A stretch of DNA of 64,000 bases from Desulfobacteraceae bacterium (lineage in GTDB: Bacteria; Desulfobacterota; Desulfobacteria; Desulfobacterales; SURF-7), in assembly GCA_003599865.1 (NCBI GenBank), contig QZKS01000056.1, positions 1 through 64,000 of the forward strand, given 5' to 3'. Positions 22,018-30,698 of the stretch are shown one piece after another. Within the stretch, counting starts at the first letter, position 1. Each line of letters begins with the position of its first letter. The notes under the pieces were generated by a model that did not search any database, was not told where the DNA came from, and saw nothing but the letters and a program-made list of their open reading frames with translations. The translations under genes and the position numbers were made by a program.

Positions 22018-23076
22018 ATGTCCATACCGCTTCGACCGATTCTTCCCAATCCGGGAAGATTGGTATCCAACGGACGATTTAATCTGGGAACGTTCAAAGA
22101 AGAGTTTACGGAAATCAATCCCCTGGATGCGGATATCGCCGGTTTTTTTCCCTATCCCCGTGCGTTCCGGAATTTCCGTTTGAAGGAGTGGCAGCATTTT
22201 GCACTGGTCAATGAAGACTATTATATCAGTCTGGCATTGTTTAATGCCAAAACAATGGCTTTGGCCCAGGTATGTCTGTATGACCGGCAATCCGGCAATA
22301 TCCATTTTTATGAAAAAAAGACCCTTCCCAAAAACATCAGCCTGCCGGGGACGCTCTGGAACAGCCGTGCCTTCATTGACCGGAAAGGATTCAATGTGAC
22401 GATTCACAATGAGCTGGCGGAAGGACGGCATACCATTCATTTCAAGATCGATGCCGTAAAAGCGCTGCCCCCCGTGGAAGGCAGCTTTACCTGTTTCGAA
22501 GATATGCGGGTGTCCGAACCGATTGTGGTGTGCCTTCCATTGAAAAAAAACCGGGCCATGTATTCTCATAAATTTGTATGCCCCATCGAGGGGGAATTGA
22601 TCATCTCCGGAAAGCCGGTGATTTTTTCACGCAAGAACAGCTATGGTCTGGTGGATATCCATAAGGGGTATTATCCGTTTGTCATGAAATGGCATTGGGC
22701 GACCGCCGGGGGATTTGATTCCCATCACGGTCTTGTGGGGTTGAACCTGACGGACAACCAGGTCAGGGACCAGAATGCCTATAATGAAAATTGCGTCTGG
22801 CTGAACGGCAAGCTTCATCTTCTGCCGAAGGTTCGGTTTACCTTCCTGAAGGAGGATTTATACAAACCATGGCATATTCAGGATCAATATGGAATGGTTG
22901 ATCTGACATTCACACCGGAAGTGATTCGCACGGTGGATATCAATGCGATTGTGGTAAAGACAAAATATCGTGGCCCGTTCGGATCATTTTCAGGCCATAT
23001 CAAGCCGGCGGGCCAAGAAAATCTGTCGGTGGATCGTTTATTTGGAATGTGCGAGGATTTTTTCCTGCAAACATGA
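22018..23076 (+). CDS. DUF2804 family protein
   Basis: This 352-residue soluble protein carries the DUF2804 features: FPYPRAFRNFRLKEWQHFAL near residue 43, and in the middle LVDIHKGYYPFVMKWHWATA followed by GLVGLNLTDNQ. The fold is predicted beta-rich and lipocalin-like by analogy; no function is established. It sits at the head of the same-strand run of kinase, phosphatase and SET genes, ending 37 bases before the preferred kinase start, so co-transcription is likely. It has no signal peptide. CAGGAGC precedes the ATG. Confidence 0.8.
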   Translation: MSIPLRPILPNPGRLVSNGRFNLGTFKEEFTEINPLDADIAGFFPYPRAFRNFRLKEWQHFALVNEDYYISLALFNAKTMALAQVCLYDRQSGNIHFYEKKTLPKNISLPGTLWNSRAFIDRKGFNVTIHNELAEGRHTIHFKIDAVKALPPVEGSFTCFEDMRVSEPIVVCLPLKKNRAMYSHKFVCPIEGELIISGKPVIFSRKNSYGLVDIHKGYYPFVMKWHWATAGGFDSHHGLVGLNLTDNQVRDQNAYNENCVWLNGKLHLLPKVRFTFLKEDLYKPWHIQDQYGMVDLTFTPEVIRTVDINAIVVKTKYRGPFGSFSGHIKPAGQENLSVDRLFGMCEDFFLQT

Positions 23077-23113
23077 GGTCATGGCCGTTCTCGATCCGCT
23101 AAAGGAAAAGGAA

Positions 23114-26050
23114 ATGGAAAATCATAATAGTCTGTCATGCTGGAATTGCAAAAAGACAATTGAACACGTGGGCATGAACTGCCCGCACTGCAATGTATTT
23201 ATCGACAAGGAAATGATCGATCGTATTGCTGCCGGCGGGATAACGAAGATTTCTTCCGGCGGGCTGCAACCGGGCATTGTTTTTGACGAACGGTATGAAA
23301 TCATCAAACCCCTTGGAAGAGGCGGAATGGGGGTTGTTTATAAAGCCCATGACAAATACATGGATCGGGATGTGGCATTGAAGCTGATTCCCAGCGAACT
23401 TTCCATGGATCCCAAGGCGGTTTCGGATTTAAAGCGGGAAACCGCACTTGCACTTGACCTGACCCATGAGCATATCGTACGGTTTTACAATCTGGATACA
23501 TGGGAATCCTATACCTTTGTCACCATGGAATATGTCCAGTGCGGAACCCTTTCGCACCTCATGGTGGAAAAGGGCGGCAGCCTCTCTCTGAACGAAGCGC
23601 TTCCTCTTCTGACACAGATCGGACAGGCACTGGACTACGCCCATGGCAAAAATCCGCCGGTTGTCCATCTGGATTTAAAACCGTTGAATATTCTGCTGAC
23701 CGTTGACGGATATGCCAAGATTACCGATTTTGGCCTGGCCAGGGTATTGCGGGATCTGGCGACACGCGTCTCTGCATGGGAGGCTGCCGGATCACTGGCA
23801 TACATGGCACCGGAGCAGATCCGGGGCAAAGGGATCGGCACCTGGACGGATGTGTATGCGCTGGCAGCGGTTGCCTATGAGCTCTTATCCGGGCACCCTC
23901 CTTTTTATACAGGAGATTTGCGCTGGCAGATCATGCATGAAGAAGTGGATCCGATTCTGGATATGCCGGAACATGTCAACAGGGCGCTTCTCATTGGTCT
24001 TGCCAAGGAAAGCTCCCTGCGCCCCAAGACAGCCGGAGAGTTTGTAAAAATGATTTCCAATGAGATACCGGTTCCGGATATCTATGGGAAAACAGCATCC
24101 GTCAGCCAGGAGTTTTCCGGGGAAGCGGATGAAGAGACCGGGGAATCGTCCGTCTGGAAAGAGGAATGGTTTGAAAACTTCGTGGCTGACGAAGGAAAAA
24201 AACCTCCGGAATCTGCCGGGAAGCCTGTTTTCGTATTCGGCATTATTGCGTTTTTATGCCTGCTTGTGCTGGGACAGCTGGGCTGGATACTCTATTCGCA
24301 GAATTATATAAACGGCCGAATCGTGGACCGGTTGATCTCCGTTTTCAAGCCGGAGAAACAGGAACCCGGAACATCCGACAGGAAAATTCTTCCCGCGGAC
24401 CATCCGCAATCCGTATCTGTTGCCGTAACGAAAGCAGAAAAGAATACGAGCTTCAAGATCCCTATACATGAGGAAAAGGCGGTGGATTCTCCGGCTGTCG
24501 GCGGATTGTCTTTGGCAACCACCCCGACTGGAGCGATGGTACAGATTGACGATCGCGAACAGCAGCTTTCTCCTGTTGTTGTCAGCGATCTGCCGGAAGG
24601 CTCCCATACCGTAAAGGTGTCAAAGCAAGGTTTTGCCCCATGGCAGGGAAAGGTGCTGGTTCAATCTTCACAGGTTCTGGAATTACAGATCGATCTTTCC
24701 CCCATGTCCGGATTCATTTCAATCGACAGCCTGCCGGCCGAAGCGGCTGTTTTTATCGGAGGAAATCCGGTCGGTATGACACCGCTTGTTCTGGATCAGG
24801 AGACGGCAGGAGAGCTGATCGTTGAACTGAAAAAGGAGGGATATGAAACATGGAAAAAAACCTTCGATATTCAACCCGGTAAAGAGATGGCCATTAATGC
24901 AACCCTGACACTCCTCCCCGGGAAGCTGCGTATCACCAGCAGTCCGAAATCGGCGGATGTCTATATTTCCGGAAATCCGGTCGGCAAGACACCGGTAGCG
25001 CTGGATAAGATCAGTGAGGAAAAGGTTATAGTGGAGGTCCGGAAGTCGTGTTATGATTCGGCAAAAAAGACGGTTGCCATCTCACCGGGCAAGGAAGCGG
25101 AAGCTGATTTTGTTTTGAAACCATCATGCGGGGATCTTGTTGTCAAAAGCCTGCCGGAGGGAGCAGAGTGGTTTTTAAACGGGGAGCGGAAGGGAAAAAC
25201 GCCGGGAAAAGCAGGATCGCTGGAAAAAGGGGTGTACAAAATAAAAGTTGCAAAAGAGAAATATGCGGATTGGGAAGTGGATGTTACGGTCAGCCCGCAA
25301 AAAAACAAACCGGTCATTGCAACGCTGGACCCGATTGCTGAAATGGATGAGAATCTGTATATTGATCCGGTCACGGAAATGGAATTTGTATGGGTGGAAA
25401 AAGGCTGCTTTCAAATGGGAAGCATTCCGGAAGATCCGGATAGAAGTTCCGATGAAAGTCCGGTTCATGAGGTTTGCCTTGACGGATTCTGGATTGGGAA
25501 ATATGAAGTGACCCAGCGGCAATGGGTGAAAATCATCGGAGAGAATCCCTCGTCATTTCAAAATGGGTTGGATTATCCGGTGGAAAATATATCCTGGAAC
25601 GATACACAGATATTTCTTTCCAGGCTCAATGAACTGAACCAGGGCAAGGCGAGTTATCGCCTTGCCACGGAAGCGGAATGGGAATATGTCTGCCGGAGCG
25701 GCGGCAAGTCCGAGAAATATGCGGGAGGTGAAAATCCGGATCTGGTCTCCTGGTATAAAGACAACAGCATGGGAGCAACCCATCCTGTTGGAAAGAAAAA
25801 GCCAAACGGTCTGGGTGTGTTTGATATGAGCGGAAATGTCTTTGAGTGGGTTGAAGATGTTTACTTGGCAGATGCATATTTGCGGCACAAGCCATCCAAT
25901 CCGACCTATAAGGGAGAAGGGTCTTACCGGGTATGCAGGGGCGGGAGCTGGCTTTTGGGAAGCAAAGAGAGCCGATCCGTCAATCGGAGCTATTATTTTA
26001 CGACCAGTCGAAATTACAATCTTGGATTCCGGGTCGTCCGGAATCCATAA
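23114..26050 (+). CDS. Membrane Ser/Thr kinase with four PEGA repeats and SUMF1-like C terminus
   Basis: This 978-residue protein reads in order: a zinc-ribbon-like head (CWNCKKTIEHVGMNCPHC, residues ~9-26); a Hanks-type kinase at ~58-325 with GRGGMGVVYKAHD, the ATP-binding Lys in VALKLIP, the catalytic loop HLDLKPLNILL near 185, TDFGLAR and APEQIRG; one membrane helix at ~374-396; four PEGA repeats at ~463-741 (e.g. GNPVGKTPVAL); and an FGE/SUMF1-like domain at ~756-978 (KYEVTQRQW, LATEAEWEYVCRSGG, FDMSGNVFEWVEDVY, RVCRGGSWLLGS). The catalytic loop is HLD rather than HRD. The C terminus lacks the Cys pair of true formylglycine-generating enzymes, so a binding role is more likely. The PEGA and SUMF1 parts should be outside the inner membrane. 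ATG 23114 was chosen for AAGGA; ATG 23081 is the alternative. A PP2C phosphatase follows. Confidence 0.88.
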   Translation: MENHNSLSCWNCKKTIEHVGMNCPHCNVFIDKEMIDRIAAGGITKISSGGLQPGIVFDERYEIIKPLGRGGMGVVYKAHDKYMDRDVALKLIPSELSMDPKAVSDLKRETALALDLTHEHIVRFYNLDTWESYTFVTMEYVQCGTLSHLMVEKGGSLSLNEALPLLTQIGQALDYAHGKNPPVVHLDLKPLNILLTVDGYAKITDFGLARVLRDLATRVSAWEAAGSLAYMAPEQIRGKGIGTWTDVYALAAVAYELLSGHPPFYTGDLRWQIMHEEVDPILDMPEHVNRALLIGLAKESSLRPKTAGEFVKMISNEIPVPDIYGKTASVSQEFSGEADEETGESSVWKEEWFENFVADEGKKPPESAGKPVFVFGIIAFLCLLVLGQLGWILYSQNYINGRIVDRLISVFKPEKQEPGTSDRKILPADHPQSVSVAVTKAEKNTSFKIPIHEEKAVDSPAVGGLSLATTPTGAMVQIDDREQQLSPVVVSDLPEGSHTVKVSKQGFAPWQGKVLVQSSQVLELQIDLSPMSGFISIDSLPAEAAVFIGGNPVGMTPLVLDQETAGELIVELKKEGYETWKKTFDIQPGKEMAINATLTLLPGKLRITSSPKSADVYISGNPVGKTPVALDKISEEKVIVEVRKSCYDSAKKTVAISPGKEAEADFVLKPSCGDLVVKSLPEGAEWFLNGERKGKTPGKAGSLEKGVYKIKVAKEKYADWEVDVTVSPQKNKPVIATLDPIAEMDENLYIDPVTEMEFVWVEKGCFQMGSIPEDPDRSSDESPVHEVCLDGFWIGKYEVTQRQWVKIIGENPSSFQNGLDYPVENISWNDTQIFLSRLNELNQGKASYRLATEAEWEYVCRSGGKSEKYAGGENPDLVSWYKDNSMGATHPVGKKKPNGLGVFDMSGNVFEWVEDVYLADAYLRHKPSNPTYKGEGSYRVCRGGSWLLGSKESRSVNRSYYFTTSRNYNLGFRVVRNP

Positions 26051-26103
26051 TGTGAACCGGCTTCAATCATTGAATATGTTGAGGCGTTTTCTATGAATAA
26101 ACA

Positions 26104-26931
26104 TTGCTGAGCAGATTCTCCTACAATCAGAATAGAATTCTCTGGGCCGCAGAAACCAATCCCGGACTCATTCGATCCCGGAACGAGGATTATTATATTG
26201 CCCGTCCGGCTTTTGGCTTGTGGGTTCTGTGCGATGGTCTGGGCGGCCATGCAAAAGGTGCTTTGGCAAGCCGTGTTTGCGCGGAAACCATAGCGGGTCA
26301 AATCATTCGGGGAAAGCCGCTGGAACAGGCGATTCAGATTTCCCATGAAGCGGTGAGCCGGCTGGGACAGGGTGAGCCGGGTCATTCCGGCCGGCCATGC
26401 AGCACATTTGCCGCGCTGCTGATTGAAAAACGAAAGTGGACGGTTGCATGGGTCGGCGATACCCGTGTGTGGCTGTTTGAAAAAAAGAGAATCAGGCAGA
26501 TTACAAAAGACCACACGGTTATCCGGAAATTGCTGGACTGGGACATCATCACGGAAGAGGAAGCAACGGTCCATCCGGACCGGCATAAAGTCACCAAGGC
26601 CGTCGGGATGGGAGATGAGCATCTTGCAATCGGTATGCGGAAAGGGAAATGGCATCCTGATCAGGTTTTTGTTCTCGGTACGGACGGAATGGCCTTTCGT
26701 GATGAACCGGACGTCTTGTCCAATATACTCTCCAATACCGTGAATCCGGATCAAATTGTCGATGAGCTGTCCCATGCCAGTTTAACAGCCGGCGGCAAGG
26801 ATAATTTTACGATTGCCGTGGTGGGAAGATCCCTGAAAAACAGTTTTATCCGGAATGCGGTAATCAAGAGCCGGGAAATGTGGAATCGACAGTTGCAAAT
26901 GAACGGTATTTTTCAGCCGGCCGGCTCGTAG
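26104..26931 (+). CDS. PP2C-type protein phosphatase
   Basis: This 275-residue protein is a bacterial PPM/PP2C Ser/Thr phosphatase. Metal-binding and catalytic motifs are present: RSRNEDYYIARP, LCDGLGGHAKG, VAWVGDTRVWLF, VLGTDGMAFRD and GGKDNFTIAVV. There is no membrane segment, so it acts in the cytoplasm. It follows the Ser/Thr kinase by 53 bases and is its obvious antagonist. The start TTG 26104 lacks a good ribosome site, but the conserved ILWAAETNPGLIRSRNED begins about 12 residues later, so the N terminus cannot be much shorter. The next gene starts 2 bases after its stop. Confidence 0.88.
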   Translation: MLSRFSYNQNRILWAAETNPGLIRSRNEDYYIARPAFGLWVLCDGLGGHAKGALASRVCAETIAGQIIRGKPLEQAIQISHEAVSRLGQGEPGHSGRPCSTFAALLIEKRKWTVAWVGDTRVWLFEKKRIRQITKDHTVIRKLLDWDIITEEEATVHPDRHKVTKAVGMGDEHLAIGMRKGKWHPDQVFVLGTDGMAFRDEPDVLSNILSNTVNPDQIVDELSHASLTAGGKDNFTIAVVGRSLKNSFIRNAVIKSREMWNRQLQMNGIFQPAGS

Positions 26932-26933
26932 CT

Positions 26934-27590
26934 ATGTTATGCAGATCGGATTTATGGATTGAGGCGTGCAGTGTAAAGATGTGTGTTTATCAAAGCAGGG
27001 AAGAGATTCGGCGGTTTTTTCAGCAGCAGAATATAAAATACCTGGAGCGGACACGAATCGGGTGGGAGCCTCTCCTTACCATGAGGCTGGACACCACGCC
27101 ATACTACCGTGAAAACATGGAACTGTTTCAGGAAATATCCTGCCGGTATCAGGAAGATATCGAGAAATGCAGGATGGCGCCCATATATATCAAACAGATT
27201 GATCAAAAGCTGGGTTACGGCGTTTTTGCAGCGGAAGACATACCAAAAGATGCTTTTATCGGGGAGTATACCGGTGTGGTTCAGGTTCCTGCCGTGAATG
27301 CCGGCAGAAAAATGAGGGAAGGAGGCTTTGAATCCGATTTTTCGTGGTATTATCTGGATCAGCCCGAGGGTGCGCCGGAGCTGGAGATCAATGGCAGGCT
27401 GGAAGGCAATGAAATGCGGTTTGTCAACCACAGCGACAATTTCAATGTGGATGTCGAGCACACACTTTTCCAGGGATACTGGATCATTTTTTTCAAGGCG
27501 GCAAGGGCCATTCCAAAAGATGAACAGCTGCTGATCAGTTATGGTGAACAATACTGGGGGGATCAATACAGGGAAATTCTGGACATCTGA
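26934..27590 (+). CDS. SET-domain protein (putative lysine methyltransferase)
   Basis: This 218-residue protein ends in a SET domain: KLGYGVFAAEDIPKDAFIGE then YTGVVQV, the substrate/SAM-site NEMRFVNHSDNFNVD (the RFxNHxxxxN motif) and ISYGEQYW near the C terminus, equivalent to the catalytic GEELxxDY region. The N-terminal ~90 residues are helical and charged. SET proteins methylate lysine side chains with S-adenosylmethionine; bacterial examples are scarce and their targets mostly unknown. Its place directly behind a Ser/Thr kinase and PP2C suggests a second layer of protein modification in one operon. ATG 26934 follows the PP2C stop by 2 bases; ATG 26979 is an alternative start. The frame also runs upstream within the PP2C gene to 26880. 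Confidence 0.8.
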   Translation: MLCRSDLWIEACSVKMCVYQSREEIRRFFQQQNIKYLERTRIGWEPLLTMRLDTTPYYRENMELFQEISCRYQEDIEKCRMAPIYIKQIDQKLGYGVFAAEDIPKDAFIGEYTGVVQVPAVNAGRKMREGGFESDFSWYYLDQPEGAPELEINGRLEGNEMRFVNHSDNFNVDVEHTLFQGYWIIFFKAARAIPKDEQLLISYGEQYWGDQYREILDI

Positions 27591-27618
27591 TGCAGATATC
27601 GAAATTGACTTTTTTTCC

Positions 27619-27662
27619 GATTGAGCTATCCGGGTTCCATGCGGGAGCCGGACAGCTCAATC
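27619..27662. other. 15-bp hairpin between convergent genes
   Basis: GATTGAGCTATCCGG (27619-27633) and CCGGACAGCTCAATC (27648-27662) pair with a single mismatch around a 14-base loop. It lies between the ends of the SET and Fe-S protein genes. There is no T run on the 3' side in either direction, so it is either a poor terminator or an mRNA 3'-end barrier. Confidence 0.55.
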
Positions 27663-27684
27663 AGGAGTAAAGCCACGTCATGGT

Positions 27685-29131: not shown

Positions 29132-30055
29132 ATGTCTTGCATTTATCCCATTGGAGGAGGCAAGGGGGGTATTGGAAAAAGTTTTATCGCAGCCAATCTG
29201 GGCGCCCTGCTCGCCAGGCAGGGAAACCGGGTCGTACTGGTTGACCTGGACCTTGGCGGAGCAAACCTTCACACCTTTACCGGGATTAGCAATATACCCG
29301 TCGGGATAGAATCCTTTTTAAATAAAAGTGCCAGAAACCTGGAGGATGTGGCTGTTCCCACGAATATCGATCATCTTTCCATTATCAGTTCCGTGAACTG
29401 TTCCATGGAAATCACGAATCTTTACGCTGCCCAGAAAATAAAAATTATCAATGCGCTGGCAAAGCTTCCCTATGATTATATCCTGCTGGATCTCGGGGCA
29501 GGGACGAATTATAATACACTTGATTTTTTCCTGTCTTCCTATGAAGGGATCATCACGCTGACTCCGGAGCCCACCTCGGTTGAAAATGCGTTTAAATTCA
29601 TCAAGGCCTTGTATTTCAGGAAAGTGAAGCAGATCCTCGGCCAGAATGATTTTTCTTTTTATTCGAAACAGGTTGAAATGAATTCAAATGCCCTTGAGGT
29701 GACATCACAGGTGATCGATTCCGTACTGGAGCGTGATCCGGCAAAGGGAGAACGGCTGCTTCAGGAGCTTCGAAAGTTCAAGTTTAAATTCATCATCAAC
29801 CAGTTCCGAAAAACAGTCGGCGCCAAGCTGGGAGAAAAAATCGAAAAGGTCTGTAATAAACATTTTTATTCCGAATTTACCTTTCTGGGTAATGTCTGCT
29901 ACGATGAACGGGTTCATGACTCCATCTATTCAAGAACCATCTTTGTCAACAAATACTCATATACCGTCAGTGCGATTGATTTAAGCCATATTGTCAAAAA
30001 TTTGCAGGGGAATATGGAGACCGCTGCACTGCGAACCATAGGGCACTATGAGTGA
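29132..30055 (+). CDS. MinD/ParA-type (FlhG-like) ATPase
   Basis: This 307-residue P-loop ATPase has the deviant Walker A GGGKGGIGKSFIAANLGALL (residues ~8-27), the switch VVLVDLDLGGANLHT and the Walker B-like YDYILLDLGAG. EGIITLTPEPTSVENAFKF is the usual loop of the FlhG/MinD group. These proteins position flagella, septa or other structures by ATP-driven membrane or nucleoid association. No flagellar genes are near, so the cargo is unknown. Its stop overlaps the start of the next gene by 8 bases, so the J-like/HTH protein is probably its partner or regulator. Confidence 0.88.
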   Translation: MSCIYPIGGGKGGIGKSFIAANLGALLARQGNRVVLVDLDLGGANLHTFTGISNIPVGIESFLNKSARNLEDVAVPTNIDHLSIISSVNCSMEITNLYAAQKIKIINALAKLPYDYILLDLGAGTNYNTLDFFLSSYEGIITLTPEPTSVENAFKFIKALYFRKVKQILGQNDFSFYSKQVEMNSNALEVTSQVIDSVLERDPAKGERLLQELRKFKFKFIINQFRKTVGAKLGEKIEKVCNKHFYSEFTFLGNVCYDERVHDSIYSRTIFVNKYSYTVSAIDLSHIVKNLQGNMETAALRTIGHYE

Positions 30056-30698
30056 TAATAAGAAAATGAATTATTACGAGATTCTGGAAATTCCGGTGAA
30101 CGCATCTTTTTTTGAAATCCGGCATGCCTACAAGGAAGCTCTTTCCGTATATGGGGAAGACTCTTTGAGCACCTATTCCCTGTTTTCCGAAGGGGAGAGG
30201 GAAAATCTGCTCCGGAAAATTGAGGAAGCATTTCATACCTTGGTTGATGAGAAAAAACGATCCGAATACAATCATCATCTGGTTGAAAACGGAGTGATTG
30301 ATCCAACGGAATTGTCCCGGGAGGAAAAGCAGAAATCCATACCGATTTTTCTGGCGCACAATTCGATCGATAAAAACATGTTTTTTAAAAAAGTGAAGAA
30401 AAAGGTCGAGGAGAGCAGTATCCGGGAGCTTACCCGGGAGATTATGGAAACAGCCCTGATCTCGGGTCAGGACCTGAAACGGCTGAGACAGGCAATTGGA
30501 ATCGAACTGGATGATATCTTTGAGGTCGCCAGAATCAGCATATCGATTTTGAAGGCCATTGAAAACAATGAATTTCAAAATCTACCATCCCTGATTTATC
30601 TTCGAAATTTTTTAAAGTCCTATGCGGAAATCCTTCATCTTGATCCGGAAAAAGTAGCGGACAGCTATATCATTAACATTTCTCTTCTGCAAAAGTAG
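30048..30698 (+). CDS. J-domain-like protein fused to a RodZ-type HTH
   Basis: This 216-residue protein starts like a J domain (MNYYEILEIPVNASFFEIRH, then AYKEALSVYGEDSLSTY and IEEAFHTLVDEKKRSEYN), but the HPD tripeptide needed to stimulate Hsp70 is replaced by YGED, so classical co-chaperone activity is unlikely. The C-terminal ~75 residues (SGQDLKRLRQAIGIELDDIF, then ISILKAIENNEFQNLPS and LIYLRNFLKSYA) match the HTH of RodZ/YfgA cytoplasmic domains. There is no membrane segment. It overlaps the MinD-like gene by 8 bases, which points to a polar-organising or scaffold function with the ATPase. Confidence 0.75.
   Translation: MSDNKKMNYYEILEIPVNASFFEIRHAYKEALSVYGEDSLSTYSLFSEGERENLLRKIEEAFHTLVDEKKRSEYNHHLVENGVIDPTELSREEKQKSIPIFLAHNSIDKNMFFKKVKKKVEESSIRELTREIMETALISGQDLKRLRQAIGIELDDIFEVARISISILKAIENNEFQNLPSLIYLRNFLKSYAEILHLDPEKVADSYIINISLLQK

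Follow-up and report, generated by a model that had tools for sequence, protein, structure and literature searches.

A receptor kinase/PP2C gene pair probably joined by a SET-domain gene in one lineage of Desulfobacterales

The window analyzed here, a stretch of 64,000 nucleotides, belongs to a 5.0-Mb draft genome; the named relatives closest to this genome are MAGs of the Desulfobacterales. It carries genes for a transmembrane Ser/Thr kinase, a PP2C-family phosphatase and a SET-domain protein, each directly next to the other on the same strand, as an earlier sequence-only reading had described. We consider it probable that this locus is a conventional receptor kinase/PP2C pair that acquired, in a single lineage, a free-standing bacterial SET methyltransferase as its neighbour. 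We favor this explanation because the kinase-PP2C pair occurs without SET in a third genus, more than half of the surveyed PP2C genes lie near a kinase and SET genes are mostly found elsewhere. It is further favored because the SET proteins of the trio form a single clade, the genes form a one-strand run with a hairpin after SET, and insertions are found only downstream of SET.

The three genes are part of a forward-strand run of four, in the order DUF2804, kinase, PP2C and SET, with intergenic gaps of 37, 53 and 47 bases. The run is flanked by divergent TRAP-transporter genes on one side and by a convergent gene for a ferredoxin-domain protein on the other. The sequence-only reading had assigned positions 22018-27590 to kinase, PP2C and SET; all three are indeed encoded on the forward strand, but 22018 is the start of the DUF2804 gene, which it did not mention. 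This first gene of the run (22018-23076) encodes a protein of 352 amino acids (PF10974, E 7.3e-53) and is found at the equivalent position with 82-83% identity in three genomes of the same genus (G001-G003).

In the window genome, shared transcription of the run, with its single strand and short gaps, is likely. Between PP2C and SET the window shows no promoter- or terminator-like site, and the other gaps of the run contain no terminator-like site on the forward strand. A single promoter-like match, at 26098-26127, covers the PP2C start. A strong hairpin without a U-tract (27606-27675, inverted repeat I1; -39.1 kcal/mol, z -4.85) lies 3' of SET, where this gene and the ferredoxin-domain gene converge, and is likely to mark where the transcription unit ends. 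Because G001 has a terminator-like hairpin between PP2C and SET, co-transcription is not certain in every genome.

The kinase gene (23114-26050, forward strand) encodes a zinc ribbon, a kinase domain, a transmembrane segment, four PEGA repeats and a tail of FGE/SUMF1 fold. ATG 23114 is the best candidate for its start, with a strong Shine-Dalgarno sequence (AAGGAAAAGGAA) upstream and Met-Glu-Asn/Lys kept in the relatives. The head of the protein is a CxxC-CxxC zinc ribbon (CWNC-x10-CPHC), followed by the Pfam domains Pkinase (PF00069, E 2e-45), four PEGA stretches and FGE-sulfatase (SUMF1). All Hanks-type motifs are present (GRGGMGVV, VALK, HLDLKPLN and DFG), which predicts an active kinase, and the nearest structures of the kinase domain are StkP and PknB. 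The catalytic loop (23660-23690) reads HLD instead of HRD, with Leu replacing the Arg before the catalytic Asp, and the same HLD loop is found in all three relatives whose sequence covers this region. Non-RD kinases are often independent of activation-loop phosphorylation. Matches of this locus to anti-phage defence systems in PADLOC spanned the generic kinase domain only, together with one weak PP2C match, and a defence function was rejected.

The tail of the kinase aligns with SUMF1, its best match being the ligand-binding protein TvpA (2y3c, E 4e-25). The FGE catalytic Cys pair, which follows the GGSxxC motif, is absent from the tail, where GGSWLLGSKESRSVNR aligns with the region that is catalytic in the FGE structures; the catalytic Cys is likewise missing in all five homologues compared. 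By its sequence, the tail is thus a member of the same fold family as FGE and not the enzyme, and the earlier label 'non-catalytic' was correct, as was the overall kinase architecture proposed with it. Diversity-generating variation of the tail was rejected, since the tail is conserved in the relatives and its last ~200 bases were found only once in the genome.

The PP2C gene (26104-26931, forward strand) starts with TTG, or CTG in the window. Its product (PF13672) is Stp1/PppA-like and retains all metal-binding Asp motifs (RxxNED, DGxGGH, TDG and DN). It matches the 5iti/2j82 structures in profile searches (E 1e-28), with PppA and PstP as the closest types. Against the Stp1 model NF033484 it scores 151 bits, below the equivalog cut-off of 230 bits, and it is assigned to the PP2C family and not filed as an Stp1 equivalog. 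The intergenic stretch between kinase and PP2C (26051-26103) contains a hairpin and an SD-like GAGG that are conserved in four genomes of one genus. Across 26051-26110 in these four genomes, the hairpin arms GCTTCAA/TTGAGGC surround the GAGG and show one C-G to T-A double change; the z-scores, from this one genus only, range from -0.3 to -3.4. An SD-preceded ORF of five codons (26093-26110, ATG-x4-TGA) ends in a stop that overlaps the PP2C start codon region. From the sequence, this arrangement suggests that kinase and PP2C are translationally coupled.

The SET protein (26979-27590, forward strand) comprises 203 amino acids, with a conserved helical N-terminal part of ~65 amino acids preceding the SET domain (PF00856, E 3e-18). 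The sequence-only reading had placed the gene 2 bases behind PP2C, which depends on a start at ATG 26934. Homology begins at ATG 26979 and this start is conserved, and the 2-base junction was therefore rejected in favor of a gap of 47 bases after the PP2C stop; in relatives the gap measures 45-129 bases, varying with the start chosen. The SET motifs GxG, RFxNHxxxxN and ISYG are kept. No variation was seen across 11 SET orthologues in GxG, the Asn-His of the cofactor loop, the Asn after it or the catalytic Tyr, and these residues align with EZH2, so that the methyltransferase residues, whose lack on structural alignment had been named as refuting evidence, are present. Profile and structure searches matched EZH2 and SETD8. 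The AlphaFold model is weak (pLDDT 62), and its Foldseek matches to SETD8 (TM ~0.4) and SETD2 are supportive only. Overall, the three enzymes of the run are apparently active, with catalytic motifs intact except for HLD in place of HRD in the kinase. The window genome encodes three SET genes in total; the other two lie in tandem elsewhere (L026:5825-6866, G000:C50; E 8e-11 and 5e-10), and such tandem SET genes were also observed in G485, G382, G518 and G555.

Conservation of gene order was assessed in about 300 genomes each of the class and of the phylum and by one pattern scan of GTDB. The four-gene run is kept in all four genomes of the genus that were compared (the window genome and G001-G003). 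There, the whole block from the TRAP genes through the DnaJ-HTH gene is collinear as well, and order within the genus is therefore weak evidence by itself. The distal part of this block (29132-30698 in the window) consists of a gene for a ParA/MinD-like ATPase followed by a fusion of DnaJ and a RodZ-type HTH, and is collinear across the genus and in G007. In G007, which represents a second genus of the same family, kinase, PP2C and SET are kept at 54, 62 and 65% identity; its contig ends inside the kinase, placing the DUF2804 position outside the comparison. The flank after SET is rearranged in this genome, with about 7 kb between SET and the ancestral downstream block. The insertions seen in G001, G002 and G007 all lie after SET and none within the run. 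In G006, from a third genus of the family, the kinase-PP2C pair is present at 47/51% identity without SET and is followed by a gene for a ChaN-like protein.

The SET orthologues of nine other genomes sit in unrelated surroundings, next to genes for RecD2, RecBC/PilZ-LuxR, RadC/trypsin-like protease, an AI-2E transporter, flavodoxin and carbamoyltransferase. DNA-repair genes were considered as a recurrent neighbour and discarded, as three different genes in three genomes form no pattern. Adjacency to the carbamoyltransferase gene was observed in two related genomes of another family (L062:6358-8232 and L064:3931-5835; carbamoyltransferases 65% identical). Outside the trio, 38 SET genes were examined, the nine orthologues and 29 from a sample of 296 genomes of the phylum. 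No kinase or PP2C was detected within 10 kb of any of them, and some neighbours may be missed on the few contigs that end near SET. In the same genomes, a kinase lies within 3 kb of 25 of 45 PP2C genes, and kinase-PP2C adjacency is an ordinary, commonplace arrangement. The five trio SETs form one clade in the tree (support 96/97), and SET linkage is therefore most simply read as a single event in one lineage. Recurrence of the kinase-PP2C-SET order across genomes, which the sequence-only reading had named as a check, was seen beyond chance in one genus (4/4) and in one genome of a second; the order is not widespread, and recurrence across independent lineages was not found, the trio being confined to five genomes, two genera and one SET clade.

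It is conceivable, and rather less than an even chance in our estimate, that the genes are passive neighbours, SET having landed behind PP2C by chance and remaining there through regional collinearity among close relatives. The collinearity of the entire TRAP-to-DnaJ-HTH block and the single origin of the SET linkage agree with this, whereas the single strand, the short gaps and the survival of the trio in G007 despite the ~7 kb separation speak against it. That the trio persists at identities as low as 54-65% next to a rearranged flank hints at more than passive linkage and, to that extent, also counts against the explanation we favor. Passive linkage is a form of that explanation, so the likelihoods assigned to the explanation and to its rivals overlap.

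A functional tie of SET to the kinase and PP2C, specific to this lineage, is possible. In one version, which we regard as unlikely, SET would be a dedicated third enzyme: the kinase would phosphorylate SET or its substrate, or SET would methylate the kinase or PP2C, with phospho-methyl cross-talk on one target. This would fit a trio that is unbroken in five genomes from two genera, all insertions lying behind it, and the retention of all three sets of catalytic motifs. Moreover, only five kinase matches above the Pfam cut-off were found in the window genome, so the locus is one of its main kinase loci. On the other hand, G006 keeps kinase and PP2C without SET, the nine genomes with a SET orthologue lack a nearby kinase or PP2C, the PP2C-SET gaps amount to 45-129 bases, and G001 has its terminator-like hairpin in this gap. 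We assign a similarly low probability to recruitment of SET into the kinase/PP2C circuit, where an envelope signal received by the PEGA/FGE-like ectodomain would set the phosphorylation as well as the lysine methylation of a cytoplasmic target common to both enzymes and thereby form a bacterial phospho-methyl switch. Very improbable is a degenerate, non-catalytic SET fold serving as a binding module, for which NHSD or NHG/NHN where NHSC is usual, the lack of a visible post-SET cysteine cluster and the pLDDT of just 62 could be cited, but which conflicts with the catalytic residues invariant in 11 orthologues and aligned with EZH2.

The sequence-only reading had gone further and proposed a new combined protein-modification system. 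As it implied, genes for three types of enzyme lie side by side; they are probably transcribed together, and the encoded enzymes are apparently active. A general three-enzyme modification system is not supported by the genomes compared: the claim overreaches because kinase-PP2C pairing is ordinary, SET is mostly found apart and the association is restricted to one clade.

For the conventional pair joined by SET, we infer a scheme of sensing, enzyme activities, co-transcription and any shared target from the observed gene order, domains, catalytic motifs and phylogenetic range. The periplasmic PEGA and lectin-fold (FGE-like) part would sense a ligand or a state of the envelope, the kinase domain in the cytoplasm would phosphorylate itself and target proteins, and the adjacent PP2C, judged from its family, would strip these phosphates. 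The SET protein would act as a soluble lysine methyltransferase with a cytoplasmic substrate of its own. Its gene would have become part of the transcription unit a single time, in an ancestor common to the two genera, and would now probably be co-transcribed, so that methylation may arise alongside the phosphorylation circuit and not as an obligate part of it.

To our knowledge, native substrates have been described for few of the free-standing SET proteins of bacteria. For a lineage that keeps SET linked to a kinase/PP2C pair, a concrete, testable guess at the SET pathway can be made; if there is no link, the locus cautions against inferring a system from genes that are adjacent in close relatives. 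A literature search for a SET-kinase-phosphatase gene cluster in Deltaproteobacteria found no paper. Among known systems, the PknB/StkP and PstP/Stp1 pairs likewise place a membrane Hanks-type kinase beside its PP2C; they carry PASTA repeats, whereas the window kinase has a PEGA and FGE-like ectodomain, HLD for HRD and a SET gene next to the pair. The kinase tail matches ligand-binding domains of FGE/SUMF1 fold (Treponema denticola TvpA and the FGE-like domains of kinases, PDB 7spq and 5nxl), which also lack the catalytic Cys pair. It differs from these domains in being conserved among relatives, with its last ~200 bases in single copy, and nothing points to diversity-generating variation. The free-standing SET proteins of bacteria are short, single-domain proteins numbering 1-4 per genome (review PMC3980110; Chlamydia NUE, PMC2904774), in line with the three of the window genome. 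The SET protein described here differs in coming from a free-living sulfate reducer without a host-directed sign, in its distinct conserved N-terminal part and in its kinase/PP2C neighbour. Chlamydia, with Pkn1/PknD, Cpp1 and NUE, similarly combines Hanks-type kinases, a PP2C and a SET protein in one organism.
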